Shown: piece by piece, positions 4,386 through 22,743 of the stretch
Position numbering within the stretch: position 1 is the stretch's first letter
How the letters are laid out: the number at the start of each line of letters is the position of its first letter
Source: a virus
IMG/VR virus record: IMGVR_UViG_3300044638_005925
Coordinates: 1-22,743 of that record
DNA length: 22,743 nt
Reading direction: 5' to 3' (one strand)
Program-made: the position numbers and the translations under genes
Notes under the pieces: model-generated
Told to the model about the DNA's origin: nothing
Seen by the model: only the letters and a program-made list of their open reading frames with translations
Databases searched by the model: none

Positions 4386-6272
4386 TTAAATTGTTGCTAA
4401 ATTACCAGCAAAGTTAAAACTAGGTGATGTATCGACATCAAATTCCGATCTATTAAACTTCACTAAATTGTTAGTACCTGTATTAGCTCTGTTAGACTGC
4501 TGAGCTGGTCTATTATTTAATTTCTGAAGCAGTAAATTAGCGTTATATGTATTTTCTACTATCTTCTGTAATAAGCTTACTTGCTTTCTCGATTCTATTA
4601 AGATCTGTCTAGTATCAGTTATTAAAGCATCGTCTTTTCTACCCAAAACTCGATCTATCGATCCTCCATCTTTGAATCCCAAGACATTATCTTGATTTGA
4701 AAAGTTAACAAAATCACCGCGCTTACTTACTAAGAAGTCATTCGCCTTTTTACCAACTCCAAAAAAGTTTTTCGTAGCTTCCCAAGCGCCACCTACCTTC
4801 TCACTTATTGTTGAAGCGCCTTTTTTCACTCCCGCTTTTACTCCTTCATATGCTTTATATGGAGCTGATTCCTTTACCATTTGTTTACCTTTATCTTTAA
4901 TATAGCCTACTGGGTCGTTTATAACCTCTCGAGCTGAATCAGAAGTCTCTCTAGCAGAAGCTGCAGCACTACTCACCTCGGCAGCTGCAGCAGACACAGA
5001 AGCAGCTGCACCAGCTATAGCAGCTGCAGCAGCATTTATCGCACCTATACAAGCCGCGCCAATAGACCTGACCTGAGATATCACCTCACTAGTTATCTGA
5101 TTTAGTTTATCTTTTATAACTCCTGTTATTTCTGTTAACTTTTCATTAATACTTTTTTCAAGGCTTTCGCGTAGAGCAGTGAGCTGTTCTTTTATTATAC
5201 CTATAAGTTGTTCTTTCAATTGAGGCCAAACCTGCTCTCTGAATTCTTTTACCATTTCACTAATATTTTTTACCAGCTCATCTGTATTAGTTACAATACG
5301 CAAAGCAGCGTTACCTAAGAACTCACCGTGTTCGGCTATCCAATCTGATAGTTTACGGAAATTCGCTATAATGGCCTCTACCTCAGGAGATTCAAGAAAA
5401 TCCATAAAGCGATCTGCTACTACTATTGCTCTATCAAAGGTACTTTTAAAATCTTTAAATATACCGTTAATATCCCACTCTTCTAACTTTTTATTAACCC
5501 AGTCACTTACCGATTGCCACACATTTCCTAATTTCATCTTTATCCAATCCCACAAAGACTGCTCACCTTCTTTAGGTTTAAACATTTCTTTAATAGATCC
5601 CTTTAAGTCCTCCCAAGCATCTGATAAAAATTTCATTTTATCTGGAGCTTCAAAAAAACTTTTTACCCAATTAAATGTAGCTTTAAGTTTTTCCCAAACC
5701 CATGAAAAGGCCTTTTTCACTGTATCAACGATACCAGCTATAACCTCATATGTTTTAGGAAAAGTCTCCTTAAACCACTTTAAGAAACGAGCCTTTAAAT
5801 CATCTACAATAGATACTATAGGATCAAATATCGCAAAAAGCGTATTAGTGATAACATTTTTGCCAAAGAATTTCTCTATAAAAGGTTTTGCTAGTTTATA
5901 GAGTGATACATAATTAAGAACTTTAAAGATAGAGCCTATAACCTTGCCTATCATACCTAGTATACTAAATCCTCCTCCTTGTTGCACTGGTCCTCCTGTT
6001 ACAGCCGCTACATTAGGTCTAATAGCAGCTGGCGTTAAATCTTCGAGCTTACCTTTAGATGCATAATTACCTATACCTAAAGCTTTACCAAATTCTATAG
6101 CTTTTTGACGCTCACGTGATTTTTCACGTGGTGTAAGTACAGGGCTCTCCTCTCTTTTAAAGGTGCTACCGCCATCAGAAGGTATAATGCTCTGAGTACC
6201 TTTAATCTTCTCACCCAGTATATTAATTTGCTGGGTGAGTCTTTCTATAGGCCTTTCTAGTCTATCTTCCAC
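4386..6272 (-). CDS. Tape measure protein candidate (GTG start)
   Basis: This is a 628-residue, mostly helical protein. Residues 1-60 are charged. Residues 98-210 hold hydrophobic and Trp/Lys amphipathic helices (GFSILGMIGKVIGSIF, then a W-rich stretch). Residues 330-405 look like a coiled coil, 406-440 are strongly Ala-rich, and residues 532-570 carry FKDGGSIDRVLGRKDDALI, a type of C-terminal segment often seen in phage tape measures. It follows a tube gene and two chaperone-like genes, the usual place for a tape measure. At about 1.5 angstrom per residue it would suit a tail of roughly 90-95 nm (T4 gp29 has 590 residues). The frame opens with GTG at 6272. An overlapping ATG at 6274 is out of frame. 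ATTAAATA plus 5 nt precedes the GTG. Confidence 0.6.
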   Translation of the reverse strand: MEDRLERPIERLTQQINILGEKIKGTQSIIPSDGGSTFKREESPVLTPREKSRERQKAIEFGKALGIGNYASKGKLEDLTPAAIRPNVAAVTGGPVQQGGGFSILGMIGKVIGSIFKVLNYVSLYKLAKPFIEKFFGKNVITNTLFAIFDPIVSIVDDLKARFLKWFKETFPKTYEVIAGIVDTVKKAFSWVWEKLKATFNWVKSFFEAPDKMKFLSDAWEDLKGSIKEMFKPKEGEQSLWDWIKMKLGNVWQSVSDWVNKKLEEWDINGIFKDFKSTFDRAIVVADRFMDFLESPEVEAIIANFRKLSDWIAEHGEFLGNAALRIVTNTDELVKNISEMVKEFREQVWPQLKEQLIGIIKEQLTALRESLEKSINEKLTEITGVIKDKLNQITSEVISQVRSIGAACIGAINAAAAAIAGAAASVSAAAAEVSSAAASARETSDSAREVINDPVGYIKDKGKQMVKESAPYKAYEGVKAGVKKGASTISEKVGGAWEATKNFFGVGKKANDFLVSKRGDFVNFSNQDNVLGFKDGGSIDRVLGRKDDALITDTRQILIESRKQVSLLQKIVENTYNANLLLQKLNNRPAQQSNRANTGTNNLVKFNRSEFDVDTSPSFNFAGNLATI

Positions 6273-6277
6273 ATTAT

Positions 6278-6285
6278 TATTTAAT
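6278..6285 (-). promoter_or_regulatory. Degenerate octamer ATTAAATA 5 nt before GTG start
   Basis: The minus strand reads ATTAAATA, then five bases, then the GTG at 6272. It keeps the AAATA core and the 5-nt spacing of the strong examples, which supports the GTG over the out-of-frame ATG two bases upstream. It overlaps the stop codon of the preceding gene. Confidence 0.3.
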
Positions 6286-8546: not shown

Positions 8547-8554
8547 TATTTATT
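8547..8554 (-). promoter_or_regulatory. Late-promoter-like octamer AATAAATA, 5 nt before GTG at 8541
   Basis: The minus strand reads AATAAATA, ATCTT, then the GTG start. It has one mismatch (first base) to T4 TATAAATA and the same 5-nt spacing. It overlaps the stop codon of the upstream tube gene. Confidence 0.55.
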
Positions 8555-9098
8555 AACCTTCTACGGTATAGAAGTGATATGCAAAGGTCACATCAATAGG
8601 CACTGTATTACCAGTACCTTCAGCAATATTATAACCAATATTTTCTATGCTTCTGATAGAAACGCCGTTCAACTTATACTTACCACCTTTAATTACTTCA
8701 AGCTTTTTATCTAACTGCTCAAGAATGATATAACTATCAATATCTGGAGTACCATAACCACCAGTTGATGATTGATCATCAAATAGCTGGCGTGAAGCTT
8801 GTTCAAAATAATTTCTTAAATTGCTATTAGCATCTAAGTAGAATGATATTGGATAGCTTTCTGAGCCTGGGTAAGTTGCTGCACCAGGTACATTTATATT
8901 CAAGCCCATATATGGTACAGCTACGTTAGTTATAGCTCTTCCAGGTAGAGCTGCTGTTTTTGCATAGACGAGATCACCATCACCAAGCTCGGTGACTCCT
9001 TGTAATTTCAAAGATGTAACTCTGAATAAGAAGTCACGTGAGAAGTCTCTAGCTGCTGCTTGTCTGTAGAACTGCTGAATGTTTTGATTTACTGGCAT
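8553..9098 (-). CDS. Tail tube protein, T4 gp19-like
   Basis: This 181-residue protein lies immediately downstream of the sheath gene, as gene 19 follows gene 18 in T4. It reads 'FSRDFLFRVTSLKLQG' at the N-terminus, 'YAKTAALPGRAITNVAVPYMG', then 'YPISFYLDANSNLRNYFEQASRQLF', ending 'PIDVTFAYHFYTVEG'. These strand, loop and helix elements fit the gp19 tube family (163 residues in T4), whose hexameric rings stack to form the DNA-conducting inner tube inside the sheath. AATAAATA sits 5 nt upstream of the ATG and no Shine-Dalgarno is visible, in line with a strong late signal for an abundant protein. Two other tube-like proteins flank it, so which one is the major tube is inferred from position and length. 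Confidence 0.75.
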   Translation of the reverse strand: MPVNQNIQQFYRQAAARDFSRDFLFRVTSLKLQGVTELGDGDLVYAKTAALPGRAITNVAVPYMGLNINVPGAATYPGSESYPISFYLDANSNLRNYFEQASRQLFDDQSSTGGYGTPDIDSYIILEQLDKKLEVIKGGKYKLNGVSIRSIENIGYNIAEGTGNTVPIDVTFAYHFYTVEG

Positions 9099-11455: not shown

Positions 11456-12034
11456 TTACGAATTTAACATCGAAATATATAATTGTGAGTAAACGAACGT
11501 AAATGATGATTCTATTTCGTTAGATTGCCTGTAGTTATAGCTTATTTCATCAAGATCAGTAGGAAACGCTTTGGTATACTTAAACTCTACTACAGGCTTC
11601 TCATATTCATCTAAACCAAAGATAGATATATCTGTTTGATAGTCTCTAAATACCTCATCTTCTATTAATTCATTTGCATCAAAAAGGCCTGTTCGCTGAT
11701 CATGCATTAGATTCAACCACGAATACATAGTCCAGTAATTGTTAAACATGTTATCAACGGTAAAATTAACCGTTACAGGAGGATATGAGTTTTTACTATG
11801 AGTGGAATTATATAATGTACTGCCACCATAACGTATTTCTAACGCAGGCACTGTTATTCTTGGCACTATTGACCCGTAAACTGAAAACTGTACAGAATCC
11901 TGATTAACAACTGTATTGCCTCTATCATCACGTGTGTTAATAGATTTTAATGCGTTTGGTAATTGAAATACCAGCTTAAACTTATCAACGCGCGACTTAT
12001 TTAAGCTCGATTGTATGTACGTATTAGCTGCCAT
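11456..12034 (-). CDS. gp19-like tail tube-family protein between terminase and sheath
   Basis: This is a 192-residue beta-rich protein. It reads 'VDKFKLVFQLPNALKS', then 'FSVYGSIVPRITVPALEIRYGG', 'YPPVTVNFTVDNMFNNYWTMYSWLNLM' and a C-terminal 'SSFTFVYSQLYISML' strand. The strand order and the central strand-plus-amphipathic helix parallel those of gp19-like tube proteins, so I place it in the tube superfamily. It overlaps the terminase gene by 11 bases, which suggests coupling. AAGGA occurs about 10 nt upstream of the ATG but inside the terminase frame. In T4 no tube gene lies between genes 17 and 18, so this is an extra copy. It may be a tail terminator or tube-end protein. Function is unproven. 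Confidence 0.6.
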   Translation of the reverse strand: MAANTYIQSSLNKSRVDKFKLVFQLPNALKSINTRDDRGNTVVNQDSVQFSVYGSIVPRITVPALEIRYGGSTLYNSTHSKNSYPPVTVNFTVDNMFNNYWTMYSWLNLMHDQRTGLFDANELIEDEVFRDYQTDISIFGLDEYEKPVVEFKYTKAFPTDLDEISYNYRQSNEIESSFTFVYSQLYISMLNS

Positions 12035-14672: not shown

Positions 14673-15029
14673 ATGACCTCTTTTAAACGCTTTTTCTTAG
14701 AGTACTATAAAGGAAATCCTATACTAAATCCTAAAATGGTAAACGGTAAGGATCCTAATAGAGCTCTAACAGGTAATCGTAAACATATTACTTCAGTAAG
14801 AAAAGAAGAGGAGTATGCAGATCCCCTTGTAAAAAGTGTAGCTCTTGGTCACGCTACTAATCAATTAGTACCTTATCAAAGACTAATGAAAATTTTATCT
14901 ATCTATAAAATTGATCCCGAATCAGGAATTAAAACTTTAGGTAATTCAAAAGTCGAAGTAGTCTTAGATTACGGCCCTGATGGTAAATTATTTGGAAAAC
15001 TAAGAAGGAGAGTGAAAAATGTCATGTAA
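14673..15029 (+). CDS. Small basic protein of unknown function upstream of the neck gene
   Basis: This is a 118-residue protein, basic overall. The N-terminus MTSFKRFFLEYYKG is an aromatic-rich amphipathic start that resembles short N-terminal segments of several T4-like head-region proteins, although that is weak evidence. The C-terminal part (SKVEVVLDYGPDGKLFGKLRRR) is a predicted strand, turn and strand followed by an Arg-rich end. It begins 16 bases after the terminator hairpin; a TATAAAC stretch close to its ATG is not at the spacing seen elsewhere. Its end overlaps the neck gene by 11 bases, so the two are likely co-expressed. No family was recognised. A head-neck role is inferred from position only. 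Confidence 0.75.
   Translation: MTSFKRFFLEYYKGNPILNPKMVNGKDPNRALTGNRKHITSVRKEEEYADPLVKSVALGHATNQLVPYQRLMKILSIYKIDPESGIKTLGNSKVEVVLDYGPDGKLFGKLRRRVKNVM
15005..15010 (+). promoter_or_regulatory. Strong Shine-Dalgarno (AAGGAG) for the neck gene
   Basis: AAGGAG lies 8 nt before the ATG at 15019, inside the end of the upstream gene. It shows that this phage does use conventional ribosome binding sites for some genes, in contrast with the octamer-preceded genes. Confidence 0.8.
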
Positions 15030-15792
15030 TACAAATAGAAATGTATCTATAACTACAGCATTTGCTGCAGTGGCAAATCCTGCTTGTGGGCAGTTCTTTA
15101 ATCCAGGTAACTTCTCTGGTGAACAAGTTATATACGATACAGCGTTTAAAGATCTTATTAACAACTTTGGTATACCTATTAACTATTATGTTAATACTTT
15201 TAATCTAACAGGAGGTGCTGATCCATTATATGGTGAACATCCAACTAGTAAATATACAGGTCCCTATGAACTGTTAATGTATATAGAATTAAACGAAAAT
15301 GCTATTAACTTAACAAAGTTTGGTTTTGCATCAGATGACGAATTAACTGGTTATCTTCATATACAAACATTTACTAGTAAAATGAGCGCATTAAATTATG
15401 ATACTTTTGCGCAATCTGTTGAACCTAAATCTGGCGATATTTTAGAATTGACTGCACTTGGTTGTGATAGACCTAATGGTAGGGGATCAAAATGGTTTGA
15501 GATTACTGAAAGAGTTGATCAGGATATAGCTTCTTTGAATCCACTGTTAGGTCACTATGTCTATCGTGTACGTGCTAAGAGATATGAGCCTTCTTTTGAG
15601 CCTGGACTATCTGGTGAAAGTGTTAATCAGCAGGTCTTTGAAAATTCCTTTAGTGGTGTTGTTTCAGCAAATATACCAGGCGTTAGCGCCTCAGAGGCTA
15701 AACCATATAACTTTGATGTAGATAATGAATCTAAAACAAGAGTATTAGATATGTCAGTTAATAACACTGATATATATGGTAATTACTATTAA
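15019..15792 (+). CDS. Neck protein, T4 gp14-like
   Basis: This 257-residue protein is almost the same length as T4 gp14 (256). Conserved-looking elements are 'DPLYGEHPTSKY' (residues 69-79), 'FGFASDDEL' (101-109), 'PKSGDILEL' (136-144) with a small turn, 'KWFEITERV' (158-166) and 'NPLLGHYVYRVRAKRYEPS' (174-192). This series matches the pattern of the T4 neck-protein family, in which gp13 and gp14 join the packaged head to the tail. The start is supported by AAGGAG 8 nt upstream. In T4 the neck gene is co-directional with the terminase and sheath genes, whereas here it is on the opposite strand. Its stop overlaps by four bases the stop of the convergent gene. The assignment is from recalled family pattern. 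Confidence 0.65.
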   Translation: MSCNTNRNVSITTAFAAVANPACGQFFNPGNFSGEQVIYDTAFKDLINNFGIPINYYVNTFNLTGGADPLYGEHPTSKYTGPYELLMYIELNENAINLTKFGFASDDELTGYLHIQTFTSKMSALNYDTFAQSVEPKSGDILELTALGCDRPNGRGSKWFEITERVDQDIASLNPLLGHYVYRVRAKRYEPSFEPGLSGESVNQQVFENSFSGVVSANIPGVSASEAKPYNFDVDNESKTRVLDMSVNNTDIYGNYY

Positions 15793-16118
15793 GCTAGAGG
15801 AACTAAATTATTTTTCCTTATATATAATTCAAGCTCTTCCTTGCTATCAGCAATATGCTGATAGATCAACTCATTATCAGCAATATATTGTTCAAGCTCT
15901 TCCTTGCTATCAGCAACAACAATAGTTAGGGGGCTTGAAGTATAGCCAGAGCATTGTTGTGGTTCTATAATTATTTGTTTAGATATGGCATCGTATATCA
16001 TCCACCAATCTTGTTCTGTAGTACACACTTCATCTGGGGAAGGAATTGCTTCTTCTACATCTAATTGTTTTGAATATATTTTAATCATAATATTAATTTG
16101 TTGTGACATTCCATCCAC
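15789..16118 (-). CDS. Small protein after the LRR fibre gene; possible fibre assembly factor
   Basis: This is up to 109 residues from ATG 16118, or 99 from the in-frame ATG at 16088 (MIKIYSKQLDVEE). The later start avoids a 26-base overlap with the upstream gene and lies 4 bases after its stop, so I favour it. A DWWMIYDAISKQ strand-helix part is followed by two copies of ADSKEELE.YI (21-codon offset). It is acidic, with no catalytic motif. Small genes directly downstream of fibre-tip genes are often fibre chaperones or tip adhesins (T4 gp38 and gp57 are examples), so such a role is conceivable but unproven. No family was recognised. Confidence 0.65.
   Translation of the reverse strand: MDGMSQQINIMIKIYSKQLDVEEAIPSPDEVCTTEQDWWMIYDAISKQIIIEPQQCSGYTSSPLTIVVADSKEELEQYIADNELIYQHIADSKEELELYIRKNNLVPLA
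15828..15916. repeat. Perfect 26-bp direct repeat, 63 bp apart, inside the 109-codon gene
   Basis: Copies at 15828-15853 and 15891-15916 are identical over 26 bases and encode the duplicated ADSKEELE segment. The offset is 63 bp, or 21 codons, so the frame is kept. Between them, 15844-15864 is a perfect inverted repeat with 9-bp arms (CTATCAGCA) and a 3-base loop. Confidence 0.9.
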
Positions 16119-17103
16119 GTGATATTAATGTCGTTTTATCAGTGAGCCCTTGACCAGTTGGCGCGGCGTTGCCAGTTCCGCCAAGATTCAATACACATGT
16201 CCCGCTTGCGCTTGTTCTTCCAGCCGCTACAAAAGCTGCAAGAATAGCATTCACCGTGCTTGCCGTTAATTGATTAGTATGCGCTTCAAATATACCTAAC
16301 GTGTTTGAAACAGATCCGCCAGCAAACCCATTTAACTGATTGCTATTACAATAAAAAAACTCTAGTTTTATATTGTTTATAAGATCTGGAATAGATCCAG
16401 TCAGTTGATTACTGTCACAAGCAAATATTATAAGGTTACTGTTATCGCTTAAACTTGGAATCGATCCTGTAAGTTTTGTTACGCCGTTTTGTGCCTGACA
16501 CCTAAAATCTGTTAGCTGGGTTAATCCATTTAAGCTAGGTATCGATCCAGTTAATCCATTGTTGAAACAATAAAAAAGACCAATACTAGTGGGAAAAGCT
16601 GGGATTGAGCCAGTAAGCTGATTGTCATTAAAAGTGCAATTAACTATACTAGTGGGAAAAGCTGGGATTGAGCCAGTAAGCTGGTTTTGACTACAATAAA
16701 AAACTCTTAGGTTGGAAAGTAATGATAAACTAGGAATTGCGCCAGTTAGCTGGTTTTCGGCGCAGTAAAAATTCGTTAAATTAGAAAATGACGATAAACT
16801 AGGAATTGAGCCAGTTAGCTGGTTCTTCTCACAATTTAAATAGGCAAGCGCACTATTAGCTGAAGAAATTGGAATTGAACCGGTTATTTTATTATCTCGG
16901 CAATCAAAACTTATTAATTGGTTATTTATTGTATGACCAGTAATGCTTGTAATATCATTACTCTGGCATCTAAACGTCGTAAGATTTACAAACTGAGATA
17001 AATTAATAGTACCACCGAGCCTTGGCGATGACATTCCACAATCTATTGCAACTACAGAAGAGTTACCGTTTTGTGGTATAATATTAATAGATGTATTGGG
17101 CAT
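16093..17103 (-). CDS. Leucine-rich-repeat tail fibre/adhesin protein
   Basis: This 336-residue protein is built from about eleven repeats of ~21-24 residues (residues 42-283) with the form FYCxxNQLTGSIPxLxxLxNLxx. The Asn-Leu-Thr-Gly-Ile-Pro core is like plant-type and bacterial LRRs, and a Cys precedes each unit, giving a Cys/Asn ladder. It ends with a cap-like segment (NAAPTGQGLTDKTTLISRGW, residues 312-331). LRR horseshoes bind proteins or glycans, and at the end of a fibre cluster this protein is a good receptor-binding candidate. There is no Shine-Dalgarno at the ATG. The reading frame is open upstream to 17166, and the preceding 204-codon gene ends 17 bases before the ATG in another frame, so a broken or fused origin is possible. 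Confidence 0.85.
   Translation of the reverse strand: MPNTSINIIPQNGNSSVVAIDCGMSSPRLGGTINLSQFVNLTTFRCQSNDITSITGHTINNQLISFDCRDNKITGSIPISSANSALAYLNCEKNQLTGSIPSLSSFSNLTNFYCAENQLTGAIPSLSLLSNLRVFYCSQNQLTGSIPAFPTSIVNCTFNDNQLTGSIPAFPTSIGLFYCFNNGLTGSIPSLNGLTQLTDFRCQAQNGVTKLTGSIPSLSDNSNLIIFACDSNQLTGSIPDLINNIKLEFFYCNSNQLNGFAGGSVSNTLGIFEAHTNQLTASTVNAILAAFVAAGRTSASGTCVLNLGGTGNAAPTGQGLTDKTTLISRGWNVTTN
16583..16683. repeat. Perfect 38-bp direct repeat inside the LRR gene
   Basis: Copies at 16583-16620 and 16646-16683 are identical over 38 bases, offset 63 bp (21 codons). They encode adjacent LRR units (...NQLTGSIPAFPTSI), while the other units are diverged at DNA level. This points to a recent unit duplication or gene conversion. 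Confidence 0.9.
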
Positions 17104-17120: not shown

Positions 17121-17735
17121 TTAGACCGTGTAGAGTTTCGACGCTGTTCCGCCAGAAGCTATAGTATCAATTTTATTATCCCCCCAAAATATAGTTACAT
17201 TTCCCGGAGGATTAGTAGTTACAGAAAAATTATTTAAATTAGAATTAGAGGTATAGTTAAAATCCCAAACTCCCTTATCGAACAGAATAACACTAATATT
17301 TTGAGTTTTACTAGAAAATCTGTTTATAGAGTATTGATACCTTTTTTCGTTAGGGTTATCTGTACTACTTACCACCCACTGTGGCAAATCAGGTACCAGA
17401 TACGGCCTCGGAAGAGAATCATCTGTAAATAAATCTACCCCTGCAGTATCTGATGTACGAACTGGAATAGTTACGGTCTCCGATCCTACTGACCTATCAC
17501 CCCAAGGAGTGCTAAAAGTTTTAGTTGTAAAGTCAAATACTTGATTACCTGCTGAAAGATAGGTTATATAAGAATCATCGCTACGCCATGTATTAATACG
17601 CGGTCTATCATTCTCATTTACTTGAGGATCGTAAGCTGTTACAGTTGTATTAGTAGTGTTCCAACTAACATTAAAATCGATATTGGTCTTACTGCCTCCA
17701 TAAAGACCAACTAGTATTTCTTTATTCAATAACAT
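17121..17735 (-). CDS. Fibre-cluster protein of unknown function with a WGD strand near the C-terminus
   Basis: This 204-residue protein is Asn/Thr/Ser-rich and beta-type, with no signal peptide or membrane segment. The middle contains 'FTDDSLPRPYLVPDLPQWVVSSTD'. The C-terminal part (NPPGNVTIFWGDNKIDTIASGG) resembles the 'vtIDWGDG' strand of PKD-like repeats that often precede LRRs in bacterial surface proteins and phage fibres, but it stops shortly after the WGD, before the H-Y-type end of that domain. The start is strongly supported by AGGAGG 6 nt upstream, and the ATG overlaps the previous stop by one base (TAATG). Its neighbours are fibre genes on both sides, so a tail-fibre or adhesin component is likely. 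The family is not identified. Confidence 0.7.
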   Translation of the reverse strand: MLLNKEILVGLYGGSKTNIDFNVSWNTTNTTVTAYDPQVNENDRPRINTWRSDDSYITYLSAGNQVFDFTTKTFSTPWGDRSVGSETVTIPVRTSDTAGVDLFTDDSLPRPYLVPDLPQWVVSSTDNPNEKRYQYSINRFSSKTQNISVILFDKGVWDFNYTSNSNLNNFSVTTNPPGNVTIFWGDNKIDTIASGGTASKLYTV

Positions 17736-18364
17736 TATACACCTCCTACAGCAAATATATTTGAGTTAGATTTATAAACATAAGCACCAGAATATCTATC
17801 AATAAGTTTATTACCTACAGCATTATATTGTATATTTGATGATATATATAAGTAATTTGTACCTATATTCATAATAGCAGCATTGAATCCATTTGTTAAG
17901 ATTCCTGGAAAAGATGCAGTTAAAGGACTTGAAGTAGTATCAAAATGAAATACAGTATTAGTATCCGTATCAGCAAAAGTTATGTTTGTACTAGTAGTCG
18001 TTATAGTTACGGGTATAATCGATTTTGATGCTATGACAGATCCTCCAGCACTTATATTATCCGTTACCGTAGCAGAGCTTAGTAAGACCTTATTTGTTGA
18101 AAGATAGTTAGTTACAGTGGGTATAATTTCAGCTGATTCTTCCCAAGATGTACTTAAAGCACATACTGTCGCGTATGTACTTTGCCAATTACCTGATAAA
18201 GCACTTAGTTCCGAATCAGCAAGTAGAGCTCCTGATAAATATGTAATCAATGAACTCAAAGTACTTACTCTAGTCTCATTAGCTTGTACAATAGGAAATT
18301 GCTCTGATCCTACATACGGTAGTACAATAACAGGTAATTCAGTAATTTTTATACCATCACTCAC
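17735..18364 (-). CDS. Short tail-fibre protein, reduced paralogue of the next upstream fibre gene
   Basis: This is a 209-residue protein with a GTG start, supported by AATAAATA exactly 5 nt before it. The N-terminal ~40 residues are its own. It then carries GNWQSTYATVCALSTSW, EESAEIIPTVTNYLSTN and a C-terminal domain of about 95 residues, each closely similar to parts of the 562-residue fibre protein at 18425-20113. The last 42 residues are identical between the two. The C-terminal domain probably forms the tip or trimer-forming end, and NW repeats would form the shaft. It looks like a cut-down copy with the central shaft missing. The end of the coding sequence doubles as the Shine-Dalgarno for the next gene. 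Confidence 0.8.
   Translation of the reverse strand: MSDGIKITELPVIVLPYVGSEQFPIVQANETRVSTLSSLITYLSGALLADSELSALSGNWQSTYATVCALSTSWEESAEIIPTVTNYLSTNKVLLSSATVTDNISAGGSVIASKSIIPVTITTTSTNITFADTDTNTVFHFDTTSSPLTASFPGILTNGFNAAIMNIGTNYLYISSNIQYNAVGNKLIDRYSGAYVYKSNSNIFAVGGV
17742..17747 (-). promoter_or_regulatory. Shine-Dalgarno AGGAGG before the 204-codon gene
   Basis: AGGAGG is 6 nt before the ATG at 17735 and is contributed by the Gly-Gly codons that end the upstream gene. The paralogous fibre gene ends with GGCGG-type codons instead, so the site is specific to this copy. Confidence 0.75.
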
Positions 18365-18369
18365 TTAAT

Positions 18370-18377
18370 TATTTATT
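18370..18377 (-). promoter_or_regulatory. Late-promoter-like octamer AATAAATA, 5 nt before GTG at 18364
   Basis: The minus strand reads AATAAATA, ATTAA, then the GTG start of the short fibre gene. It lies in the 60-base gap between the two fibre paralogues, where I see no other signal and no hairpin. Confidence 0.55.
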
Positions 18378-18424
18378 ATTACAACGTAGTTTCTCTTAAA
18401 ATATAAAAAGATTGTTTAACTATG

Positions 18425-20113
18425 TTAAACGCCTCCTACTGCAAATATGTTTGAGTTTGATTTATATACATACGCTCCAGAATATCTGTCTATAAGCTTG
18501 TTTCCTACTGCATTGTACTGTATATTAGATGAAATGTATAGATAGTTAGTACCAGTATTCATAATAGCAGCATTAAACCCATCTGTTAGAGTTCCTGGAA
18601 AGGATGCTGTTAGAGGAGCTGAAGTAGTATCAAAGTGAAATATTTTATTTGTATCAGCATTAGTAAAAGTTTTATCTATACTTATATTAGTTACTGTGAC
18701 GGGTATAATCGATTCACTCGCACTTACACTATTTGTGATTAATGAAGTAGAGCTTAAAATACCACTAGTAATTGAATTGCCTTTTACATATAGACCTGCG
18801 CCGTTTAATCCTGCATTTAATGTTTCAGATAAAGTTGTACCTATTCCAACTTCGCCTGAAGAAAGAATGCTCATTTTTGCTATGTTGTTCGTTTCAAATC
18901 TAAGATGATATGCATCATTAGTACCTATAGTTAAATTAGCATTGCGTGTGTTTCCACCAGCTACCACATAAAGAGATGATGTGGTTGATACAAATGTATA
19001 TGTGTTTTGCCAATTAGCGCTATTAGCTATAAGATTAGTATAAGCGATATTACCCCCTACCCATCCACCTGAATTAGATTGAACAGTGCTATAAGTATCG
19101 TTCCAATTACCACTGTTACTATTTAAAACAGTATACCCTTCATAGCCTAGATTCCAATTAGCGCTATTACCGCTAGCATCGTATATAATATTGTTAGCGC
19201 TAATCTCTCCATTAACAGTAAGTGCTTTATTTGGATACGATGTTCTAACACCTACACCGGAACTGACTAGGCTATTTTCACCTCCTATATGCAATACCTC
19301 AACATCCTGGTCTATATCGTAGAAAGAGGCTATATCTCCAACGCCGTTGTTACCCACCCACATAGCTGTACCACTACCTACATTAACTACGCTAATTGCT
19401 GTAGTTGTTGTAAAGATGGTATTTGCAAAGGTTGATGTACCGGTAGCTGATAAATTACCATAAATTAAAACATCGTTATTAACCTGTAACCCACTAGTTA
19501 TTGTAGCAGAGCTTATTAATACGTTATTTGTAGATAGGTAATTTATTACCGTGGGTATAGTCCCGGCTGACTCTTCCCACCCCGCGCTCAGTGTAGATAC
19601 TGTAGCATAAGTATTTTGCCAATTAGCTGATACGCTTAAGAAGCTTAAATCTACACCGCTTAAATAAGCTGCGCTATTAGCCACTAAATTAGTATAAGCT
19701 ATATTTCCTCCAACCCATTCACCGGAGAGTGCTTTTAGATCCTCGCCTTGATAATTCCAAGTAATAGATGAATTAGATTGAACGGTACTATAAGCGCTAT
19801 TCCAATTAGCGCTATTACTATTTAAAACAGTATATCCTTCATAGCCTAGATTCCAATTAGCACTATTAGCTGTCATGGTCGTATAAGTACTTTGCCAATT
19901 AGCGCTTAATGCTGTAAGACCATTATAGCCTGTATAGCCTAAGTCCCATGTAGAGCTTAAAGTACTAACTGTAGCATAAGTACTTTGCCAATTAGCGCTA
20001 TTCGAAGTTACTGAAGTATGGGTATTATTCCAATTATTACTATTACCAGCCTTATCATAGATAATATCTGCTACGCTTAGAGTATTGTAGATTGTTAGAG
20101 GTCCTGTTGGCAT
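18425..20113 (-). CDS. Tail-fibre protein with NW-type repeats and shared C-terminal domain
   Basis: This is a 562-residue, Ser/Asn/Thr-rich fibre protein. Residues about 20-185 and 315-385 consist of short repeats built on SANWxxxYxTVxxLS, often with a GYEGY variant. A segment around residues 195-245 resembles the short fibre paralogue. Another carries the 'SGEVGIGTT' strand found in many phage and bacterial fibre-like proteins. The C-terminal ~95 residues are shared with the 209-residue neighbour. Such proteins trimerise into long shafts with a globular tip for host binding. It begins 4 bases after the stop of the long fibre gene and has no Shine-Dalgarno or octamer at the ATG, so it is probably coupled. 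Partner and host receptor are unknown. Confidence 0.8.
   Translation of the reverse strand: MPTGPLTIYNTLSVADIIYDKAGNSNNWNNTHTSVTSNSANWQSTYATVSTLSSTWDLGYTGYNGLTALSANWQSTYTTMTANSANWNLGYEGYTVLNSNSANWNSAYSTVQSNSSITWNYQGEDLKALSGEWVGGNIAYTNLVANSAAYLSGVDLSFLSVSANWQNTYATVSTLSAGWEESAGTIPTVINYLSTNNVLISSATITSGLQVNNDVLIYGNLSATGTSTFANTIFTTTTAISVVNVGSGTAMWVGNNGVGDIASFYDIDQDVEVLHIGGENSLVSSGVGVRTSYPNKALTVNGEISANNIIYDASGNSANWNLGYEGYTVLNSNSGNWNDTYSTVQSNSGGWVGGNIAYTNLIANSANWQNTYTFVSTTSSLYVVAGGNTRNANLTIGTNDAYHLRFETNNIAKMSILSSGEVGIGTTLSETLNAGLNGAGLYVKGNSITSGILSSTSLITNSVSASESIIPVTVTNISIDKTFTNADTNKIFHFDTTSAPLTASFPGTLTDGFNAAIMNTGTNYLYISSNIQYNAVGNKLIDRYSGAYVYKSNSNIFAVGGV
19116..19861. repeat. 47-bp near-perfect direct repeat pair inside the 562-codon fibre gene
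   Basis: Copies at 19116-19162 and 19815-19861 differ by a single base and encode the same NSANWNLGYEGYTVLNSN-type segment, offset 699 bp (233 codons). The interval between the copies is given as the feature span. The gene contains further weaker repeats of the same unit. Confidence 0.85.
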
Positions 20114-20116
20114 AAT

Positions 20117-22743
20117 TTAAAAGAATTTAGATACTAAGTTATACTGGCCATCTACTGTAACTGACGAATGCGGTAATACATTACCATATGTAGCTGTACT
20201 GTAGATAGTTGTTGATGATGGATATGAAGAAAGGCTAGGGCTACCTTTATCAGGCACGTGTAGCTTCACGTTATCTAAGAAAATATTTTTAAACACTCCT
20301 GTATTCTTGCAGATGATTGGCACGCTTGTAGTTGTTAGCGTTAAATCTTTTAGCGTTGCATGAGAACCTGCACTAAAGGAAAAGGCTATACATGATCCAC
20401 TACCAGCTAAATTAGTTCCTTTATAAGTAAAGGAACCAACTTGTGAAACATTAACTACATCCCTTGATGACGCTCCAGAAGCTTGCCATAAATCAATTGC
20501 AATACTACCGGAAGTATTACAATTTAAGAATTGGTTGCATGTTACACTGTATGAGTTGCGAATAATTAACGATCCAGACCCTGTAAGTACAAATCCATCA
20601 GCTTGGTTGGAGTTAATACTAATAAAACTTGTATTTAATGTACCGCCTGTTATGTTAAATAAAGTACCAGCAGAAGTGCCATCAATATTATTATATTCTA
20701 GAGTAATATTACCGTTAGCTTGTGAAAGTATACCTGCAGTATTTGTTAAAGTGAATTTACCAGAGCCGTTAATAAGCTTAGTTTCATTTGCTGTAAGAGA
20801 AAAGGCAGTAGTTGTTCCATTAATACTAGCTTCTGCACCAGTCTCAAAATAAATATTTCCCTTGCCGTCTAAAGGTATTTGAGAGACAATTGTATATGTA
20901 CCTGCTCTAATATATATAGTATCGTCTGTTGCTGAAGCGATAACTGCTGCTTCTATACTCTTAAATGGTTTAAATTGATCGTATTTTATTAGACCAGTCC
21001 TTGTATCAGTTCCAGTTATATTATCTACAATAATAACTCGTCCTGTAGGATCATTAATATAAGAGCTGCCTGATACAACCCCCGCTACTGTTAGATTACC
21101 ATCTATATTAACATCTCCCGATACATCAAACCCAGAAAGCTCATAGGTATTAATATTAAGATATCTTATATTAGCTGAAAGAGCTTCCAGCATTGTCGCT
21201 GATATTGTACCAGCAACGGTTAGATTCTGCGCTGATATTGTATCTAAGATACTAAGGTTCTGAGCTGTTATAGTGTCAGATACTGTCAAATTACCATCTA
21301 TATCAACATTACCAGTAGAGTGAAATCCAGAAAGCTCATAGGTATTAATATCGAGATACCTTATATTAGCAGATAAAGCTTCTAGCATTGTTGCTGATAT
21401 CGTACCTGTTATAGTAAGGTTTTGAGCAGACACCGTTCCTGTCACGCTTAAATTACCGTCTATATCAACATCTCCTGTTACATCAAATCCTGAAAGCTCA
21501 TATTGCTTAATATCAATATATGTGATATTTGCTGAAAGAGCTTCCAGCATAGTGGTAGAGAGAGTTCCAGCTACCGTTATATTTTGTGCTGTTATTGTTT
21601 GCGAAACACTTAGATTGCCGTCTATGCTCACATCTCCTGTTGAGTGGAACCCAGAAAGCTCATACGTATCGATGTTTAAAAACTTTATGTTAGCAGATAT
21701 AGCATTTAATGTAGTTGTAGAAATAGTATCAGCTATAGTCAAGTTACGACCTGTAATTGTTTCTGTAACAGTTAGATTACCGTCTATATCAACATTGCCT
21801 GTTGAGTGGAACCCTGAAAGCTCGTAAGTATTAATATCTAAATATCTTATGTTAGCTGAAAGAGCCTCTAACATAGTAGTTGATATAGTACCTGTTATAG
21901 TAAGGTTTTGTGCTGATATGAGGCCATTAACGGTAAGATTACCGTCCATAAACCCACCCTTAGCAAATTGTTTCGCTACTGAACCACCACCTGATGATAA
22001 TTCAATCAGCCTTTTTAGAGAAGCCATTTCGTTAGAAAATCTCGTACCTATAAGTTTTTCTAACTCAGACTTTATACCTTTTAGATCTACACCATTTTTT
22101 GCGAAGTTATTCTCAGAAATTAATTGAGATGCATTATTTTTAATTGATTCTGTCTCTTTAAGAACAGATTGCTTACTACTTCTTACTAGATCAAGAAAAT
22201 ATGGTTTATTTTCTACTAAGCTCTCTTCTAGTAAAGTTATTTTTTCATCATAAAATTTCTTTATCTTACTTTCAGCTAGTGTTATTGAAGCTTGAAGCTG
22301 ATTAGTTGCATCGCTTAACGATTCTTGTAACTCTGATCTTAGCTCTACGTTCGCTTTTTCTATTGTTAAAATAGAATCATCATATTTTTCTTCAATAACA
22401 TCATACAGCTCTTGTTTGCAATCTGCTATATGCCTGTTAATTCTACCCTCTAATTTTGCATTTTCTTCATACTTATGTAGTTGATCCTTAGTGCTCTTAA
22501 TCTCACTTGTTAGACTCTCACTACTATCATATACAATTTCTTCTACTGTATTACCTTTATCTGAATAGCGTATAGTACGAGGTGTTTGATAATTCTCTTC
22601 TACAGGTATATTACCTGTAGATCTACCTACTAATACTTCAAACTTACCTTTCGCTAATACAAAAGATAATGTTTCTTCTACACCCTCTACAATTACTGGA
22701 ATTTCAACTACAGGCGCTCCTTTATACTCTGTAACCTTTTCTG
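20117..22743 (-). CDS. Long tail-fibre protein (coiled coil, tandem repeats, beta-helix), N-terminus beyond the right edge
   Basis: The frame is open from the right edge through 20117, giving at least 874 residues. The ATG at 22027 is internal, because the frame continues upstream for 238 codons without a stop. Order of parts in the visible protein: beta-type segment (1-80), a long helical coiled-coil region (about 80-250), a Gly/Ser linker with FAKGG, five tandem 54-65 residue repeats, then a region of about 300 residues with FKSIEAAVIASATDDTIYI and 'AGTYTI', the signature of a parallel beta-helix of the pectate-lyase type, as in many depolymerase-like fibres. Catalytic residues cannot be judged. 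It heads the fibre cluster and may be the structural fibre attached to the baseplate, its missing N-terminus being the usual attachment end. Confidence 0.85.
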   Translation of the reverse strand, partial: EKVTEYKGAPVVEIPVIVEGVEETLSFVLAKGKFEVLVGRSTGNIPVEENYQTPRTIRYSDKGNTVEEIVYDSSESLTSEIKSTKDQLHKYEENAKLEGRINRHIADCKQELYDVIEEKYDDSILTIEKANVELRSELQESLSDATNQLQASITLAESKIKKFYDEKITLLEESLVENKPYFLDLVRSSKQSVLKETESIKNNASQLISENNFAKNGVDLKGIKSELEKLIGTRFSNEMASLKRLIELSSGGGSVAKQFAKGGFMDGNLTVNGLISAQNLTITGTISTTMLEALSANIRYLDINTYELSGFHSTGNVDIDGNLTVTETITGRNLTIADTISTTTLNAISANIKFLNIDTYELSGFHSTGDVSIDGNLSVSQTITAQNITVAGTLSTTMLEALSANITYIDIKQYELSGFDVTGDVDIDGNLSVTGTVSAQNLTITGTISATMLEALSANIRYLDINTYELSGFHSTGNVDIDGNLTVSDTITAQNLSILDTISAQNLTVAGTISATMLEALSANIRYLNINTYELSGFDVSGDVNIDGNLTVAGVVSGSSYINDPTGRVIIVDNITGTDTRTGLIKYDQFKPFKSIEAAVIASATDDTIYIRAGTYTIVSQIPLDGKGNIYFETGAEASINGTTTAFSLTANETKLINGSGKFTLTNTAGILSQANGNITLEYNNIDGTSAGTLFNITGGTLNTSFISINSNQADGFVLTGSGSLIIRNSYSVTCNQFLNCNTSGSIAIDLWQASGASSRDVVNVSQVGSFTYKGTNLAGSGSCIAFSFSAGSHATLKDLTLTTTSVPIICKNTGVFKNIFLDNVKLHVPDKGSPSLSSYPSSTTIYSTATYGNVLPHSSVTVDGQYNLVSKFF
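21110..21952 (-). repeat. Five tandem 54-65 residue protein repeats in the long fibre
   Basis: Each unit reads IDGNLTV...(S/T)AQNLTI.GTIS, then LEALSANIRYLDI.TYELSGF and ends GDV or GNV. Four units are 54 residues and the fifth carries an 11-residue insertion that duplicates its 'TISAQNLTV' part. DNA similarity between units is moderate, so they are not a recent amplification. Confidence 0.88.

Follow-up and report, generated by a model that had tools for sequence, protein, structure and literature searches.

Genes of the fibre cluster

The window (the whole stretch of DNA analysed here, 22,743 nucleotides) is a 22.7-kb fragment, and not the whole genome, of an uncultured virus recorded in IMG/VR. 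Comparison with PHROGs identified a terminase (phrog_2, 1e-55), a sheath (phrog_23, 4e-72) and a neck protein (phrog_679, 4e-10), which places the virus among the T4-like myoviruses. A fibre cluster on the minus strand encodes, in this order, proteins of 636, 562, 209 and 204 aa and a leucine-rich-repeat (LRR) protein of 336 aa (Table 1). The 562- and 209-aa proteins end in related domains, hereafter called tips, and the 204-aa gene overlaps the stop codon of the 209-aa gene by one base. The initial annotation of this locus was confined to positions 17735-20113 and leaves out this gene next door (17121-17735), which encodes the likely partner. Upstream of its tip, the 209-aa protein contains a segment 53% identical to an internal one in the 562-aa protein; it therefore looks like a short version of the latter in which the N-terminus differs and the part ahead of the tip is about 250 residues shorter.

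Table 1. Features of the fibre cluster in the window
Feature	Coordinates	Strand	Evidence
Upstream fibre gene, 636 aa, without tip domain, first of the visible cluster	20117..22027	-	phrog_4549 tail fibre, 2e-14
Long fibre gene, 562 aa, ATG start	18425..20113	-	ORF
Tip (candidate socket) domain, ~98 aa, C-terminus of the 562-aa protein	18428..18721	-	84% identical to the copy in the 209-aa protein
Final 42 codons of the 562-aa gene	18428..18553	-	Codon comparison
Short fibre gene, 209 aa, GTG start	17735..18364	-	ORF
Tip (candidate socket) domain, ~98 aa, C-terminus of the 209-aa protein	17738..18031	-	Alignments A1-A4; AlphaFold model with eight beta strands, pLDDT 84.9
Final 42 codons of the 209-aa gene, encoding the same residues as those of the 562-aa gene	17738..17863	-	Codon comparison
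Candidate plug/adhesin gene, 204 aa	17121..17735	-	N-terminus of the MLLNKEILVGLY type, common to tip-abutting genes in nine other phages
Candidate plug peptide MLLNKEILVGLY, first 12 codons of the 204-aa gene	17700..17735	-	Shared-N-terminus comparison
LRR protein, 336 aa, next after the candidate plug gene	16093..17103	-	Pfam LRR_4, 6e-19

The cluster is tightly packed except for a 60-nt A+T-rich gap ahead of the GTG start of the 209-aa gene (18365-18424), which contains AATAAATAAT, a sequence with a loose likeness to the T4 late promoter box. The 636-aa fibre, weakly bactofilin-like in Pfam, contains near-identical internal repeats around NLTITGTISxTMLEALSANI. Elsewhere in the window, two different tail-tube-like genes (phrog_45) lie on either side of the sheath gene (8553-9098 and 11456-12034, minus strand). 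The window gene at 15019-15792 has relatives in another locus, L040, where a single genome encodes two paralogous neck (gp14-like) proteins (1696-2610 and 5369-6280, minus strand) with 87.5% identity across the final 80 residues.

Identical protein ends encoded by diverged DNA

The identical C-terminal run of the 209- and 562-aa proteins is exactly 42 residues long and is followed by TAA. In a codon comparison, 19 of the last 42 codons are identical and 23 differ synonymously, with no non-synonymous difference, exactly as counted in the initial annotation, whereas the previous 53 codons comprise 27 identical codons, 11 synonymous and 15 non-synonymous differences (Fisher P = 5.2e-6 for the split of the two kinds of change between the two segments). 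Were the 15 replacements distributed randomly over the 95 codons, a replacement-free run of at least 42 residues would arise with P = 9e-4. In the absence of protein constraint, the probability that each of the 23 differences in the 42-codon end is silent would be about 1.6e-15. In NG86 estimates, dS is saturated and dN is 0 in the last 42 codons, with a dS of 0.64 and a dN of 0.15 in the previous 53. The strong protein-level constraint claimed in the initial annotation is thus borne out by the codon counts, the NG86 estimates and these P values. The longest DNA run common to both copies is 11 nt within the last 42 codons, and shared runs reach 19 nt over the whole tip domain. A search of the 22.7-kb record, a virus fragment, revealed no third full copy of the tip.

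The tip domain and its relatives

The identical 42 residues make up the C-terminal half of the ~98-residue terminal domain, for which an eight-stranded beta fold, a beta-sandwich, is predicted at good confidence (AlphaFold, pTM 0.76). In BFVD, the predicted tip matches portions of numerous viral tail and fibre proteins; among solved structures, it resembles the Pa223 capsid spike (E 9e-5) and a Klebsiella phage baseplate protein (E 6e-3). A Foldseek match to CBA120 TSP4-N is weak (E 0.05, TM about 0.58-0.6) and, judged by length, may involve the spacer domain XD1 rather than XD2 or XD3. At the sequence level, the tip gave only chance-like matches to solved structures and only weak matches, pointing to no function, in Pfam and PHROGs.

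Scans of 2.9 million viral contigs detected the tip in ten further phages, all of them uncultured and T4-like (loci L005, L078, L010, L080, L106, L081, L082, L104 and L103, and the divergent L110). Neither the tip nor the 562-aa fibre has a match in cultured phages, and no relative of the tip was found in prokaryote genome contigs. L005 and L010, the records searched over their entire length, carry one tip each, and no relative with two tips was found. The sheath-bearing records that were searched yielded a single, very distant tip-like match; the locus with a 100% sheath match does not cover the fibre genes.

The initial annotation had proposed dN/dS comparisons in relatives. Each of the five pairs of phages tested showed a lower dN for the last 42 codons than for the 53 preceding ones, so that the constraint is not special to the paralogues of the window; the stronger constraint on the C-terminal half is, in part, a property of the tip family. 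L081 and L082, which are different phages, differ at 1 of the 42 residues with a dS of 0.56. These residues do change between phages and are not universally frozen: L104 and L081 (dS above 2) show eight replacements in the same 42 codons, against none within the window. Since this pair has accumulated its replacements near silent saturation, the identity of the two window tips exceeds the family trend, on a small sample.

A conserved peptide opens the gene abutting the tip gene

In 10 of the 11 phages, including that of the window, the gene abutting the tip gene opens with a related peptide of about 12 residues (MLLNKEILIGIY type), hereafter the plug, and the distance between the two genes is -1 to +9 nt. 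The plug reads MLLNKEILVGLY in the window, behind the 209-aa gene, MLLNKEILIGIY in L005 and L078, MFHNKQALIGLY in L010, MLFDNKILSGIF in L080 and L106, MAINRNFLIGIY and MAINRNFLVGIY in L081 and L082, MALNINQLIGIY in L104 and MFLNKEQLIGIY in L103. The exception is L110, whose tip is divergent and is not followed by a plug gene. Of the tip genes seen, only the 562-aa gene precedes a second tip gene, in the place of a plug gene.

In a search for plugs across 1.24 Mb of fetched loci, 55 sheath-bearing relatives among them, these tip-abutting genes alone scored as plugs (59-63, against at most 29). Scored on one another, the plugs reached 25-49, against at most 21 for about 1,000 other N-termini. 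A DNA-pattern scan of the 2.9 million viral contigs for the plug motif returned 15 matches, and every one of those that start a fibre-abutting gene (five contigs, four phages) lies behind a tip; the remaining matches are short frames and look like chance. These scans were designed from known plugs and therefore demonstrate specificity rather than completeness. The divergence of tips and that of plugs are correlated (Mantel r = 0.53, P = 0.012, seven distinct phages), and both this correlation and the pairing itself can also result from plain co-inheritance of neighbouring genes.

At least three unrelated kinds of protein body follow the plug. L103 encodes a fusion of the plug with an LRR body that shares 50% identity over 155 aa with the separate 336-aa LRR protein of the window; this fusion connects plug, LRR and fibre tip. 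A scan with one of the body families recovered only phages already known for their tip and plug. The 204-aa plug protein of the window has no relatives in a scan with this protein alone, no match in cultured phages and no family match in Pfam or PHROGs, and its predicted model is unusable (pLDDT 41). A 694-aa plug protein encoded by L080 (8307-10391) includes long threonine-proline repeat stretches and has a body segment in common with the 204-aa protein.

In cultured cyanophages, one related body family occurs without the plug, behind other short N-termini that also precede different bodies; the combination of a short anchor and an exchangeable body therefore occurs elsewhere. The short N-termini MTLVWRPGF, MSPIYVPGK and MSW.ITG recur before different lectin-like bodies in L117, L118 and L120, which are cultured cyanophages, a recurrence that suggests further anchors of the plug type.

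A putative socket at the fibre tip

The observed basis for an interpretation consists of the 42-residue identity combined with silent divergence, the existence of a tip family, the near-invariable pairing of tip and plug, and the changing bodies behind the plug. We consider it probable that both tips of the window have to accommodate one short anchor peptide, that of a neighbouring receptor-binding protein, in a socket-and-plug design. At the distal end of the tail fibre, the ~98-residue C-terminal domain would act as a docking socket, and the protein encoded just downstream would be an adhesin, whose N-terminus of about 12 residues (MLLNKEILVGLY in the window) would be seated in the socket, the remainder forming a swappable receptor-binding body. 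In the window, a short and a long fibre would display the same socket and only one plug gene is present, so both sockets would be held to the same contact residues. If both have to fit one peptide, the last 42 residues would be frozen at the protein level and silent sites would drift. The last 42 residues would then correspond to the contact surface for the plug, physically docked in the tip, and both fibres would carry the same adhesin. Consistent with this design, the predicted tip fold resembles proteins of phage spikes and baseplates, and one of these, CBA120 TSP4-N, has other tailspikes docked to it.

The broader reading is more tentative: a standard plug of about 12 residues and a matching tip socket may allow uncultured T4-like phages to swap receptor-binding proteins of unrelated folds, the same socket on the two window fibres of different length enabling one adhesin to arm both. 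The initial annotation had suggested a shared binding partner, such as a chaperone, an attachment site or a receptor. The conserved pair of tip and plug genes gives this suggestion partial, indirect support and supplies a specific candidate.

Comparison with known systems

In T-even phages, the adhesin gene lies downstream of the distal fibre gene. In T2 and S16, the N-terminus of gp38 seats on the end of gp37 and must match it, and the receptor-binding part is variable; a chimeric gp38 with swapped N-terminal 113 residues restored the compatibility of T2 gp37 with PP01 gp38 (PMC12892980; PMC6851490). Ten of the 11 phages studied here likewise have the gene immediately behind the distal fibre gene. 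However, the anchor of gp38 is a helical bundle with three tryptophans, whereas the MLLNKEILIGIY-like peptide of about 12 residues has no tryptophan; gp38 contains a polyglycine sandwich, whereas the translations here have no glycine-rich motifs; and the bodies found here are LRR, WGDG-like or other, with a different beta-sandwich tip as the putative socket. The simplest reading is a socket and plug that would work like the gp37/gp38 pair, with a much shorter anchor. The plug protein is not a member of the gp38 family, since it has neither the helical anchor with three tryptophans nor the polyglycine domain.

T4 gp10 and CBA120 TSP4, the latter in branched tailspike complexes, dock other fibres or spikes by the beta-jellyroll domains XD2 and XD3, XD1 being described as a spacer (PMC8825819). 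The tip, a putative docking module likewise predicted to be a beta domain, has the weak structural match to TSP4-N; no sequence similarity was detected between the tip and the XD domains of T4 gp10 or TSP4. The XD domains are N-terminal to the receptor-binding body of their carrier, in contrast to the tip, which is at the distal C-terminus. Lectin-like genes of the cyanophages S-SRP02, S-CBS4 and KBS-S-2A are comparable in that the same short N-terminus precedes different bodies and related bodies follow different N-termini, but their anchor peptides are others, no related tip domain was found among cultured phages, and the phages are of other types.

Alternative explanations

The main rival of a docking socket is an intrinsic constraint of a trimeric tip: as trimer core or folding nucleus, the C-terminal half would tolerate the least change in such a beta fold. 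Two related tips, whether they stem from an old duplication or were separately acquired from related phages, would then remain identical there without any common partner. The uniformly lower dN of this half between phages and the single replacement between L081 and L082 fit this explanation well, but the eight replacements between L104 and L081 do not, and folding alone leaves unexplained why the abutting gene opens with a conserved peptide; we regard it as rather unlikely. We give still less credit to the next candidate, in which the abutting gene encodes a fibre assembly chaperone, Tfa-like or T4 gp38-like, and not a virion adhesin, the shared tip being its client surface. One chaperone serving two fibres would impose the same constraint, and T4 gp38 and Pam3 gp25 are chaperones of the distal fibre end (PMC9608196; PMC6851490). 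Tfa and Pam3 gp25 are likewise encoded beside the fibre, and some chaperones remain in the virion, as in Mu and Ur-lambda (PMC9608196). However, known Tfa-type chaperones have a conserved C-terminal helical domain (PMC9608196), the plug protein matches no Tfa or other chaperone family in Pfam or PHROGs, and the presence of at least three unrelated kinds of body, LRR included, fits a role in receptor binding better than a conserved role in folding.

Two further processes concern the silent sites. The adjacency of the two genes in one genome and their identical protein end would be expected from a recent duplication or gene conversion, but these are ruled out because silent sites are saturated in the last 42 codons, with 23 of 42 codons silently different and no shared run above 11 nt. 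The statement of the initial annotation that the domain is not a recent copy therefore holds. The old duplication proposed there is one of two histories that would look alike, the other being a separate recombinational acquisition of related tips. Selection against recombination between adjacent repeats could have favoured silent divergence, adding to the protein constraint without replacing it, and there is a precedent in Ackermannviridae, in which the addition of a docking domain resembling one already present caused tailspike genes to recombine (PMC11414711). We think this improbable: the silent changes are no more evenly spread than random, the longest run being 11 nt or less in 34% of shuffles, and the whole domain retains its longer shared runs. 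Selection for even spacing of silent changes was accordingly discarded, the shuffles giving no signal.

Implications

If the socket-and-plug design is correct, it would represent a compact, general connector for the exchange of phage receptor-binding proteins, recognisable from sequence alone. Adhesin genes could then be found in metagenomes without homology to known receptor-binding proteins, and the case of two sockets and one plug in the window would offer a direct test of which fibre-tip residues touch the adhesin.
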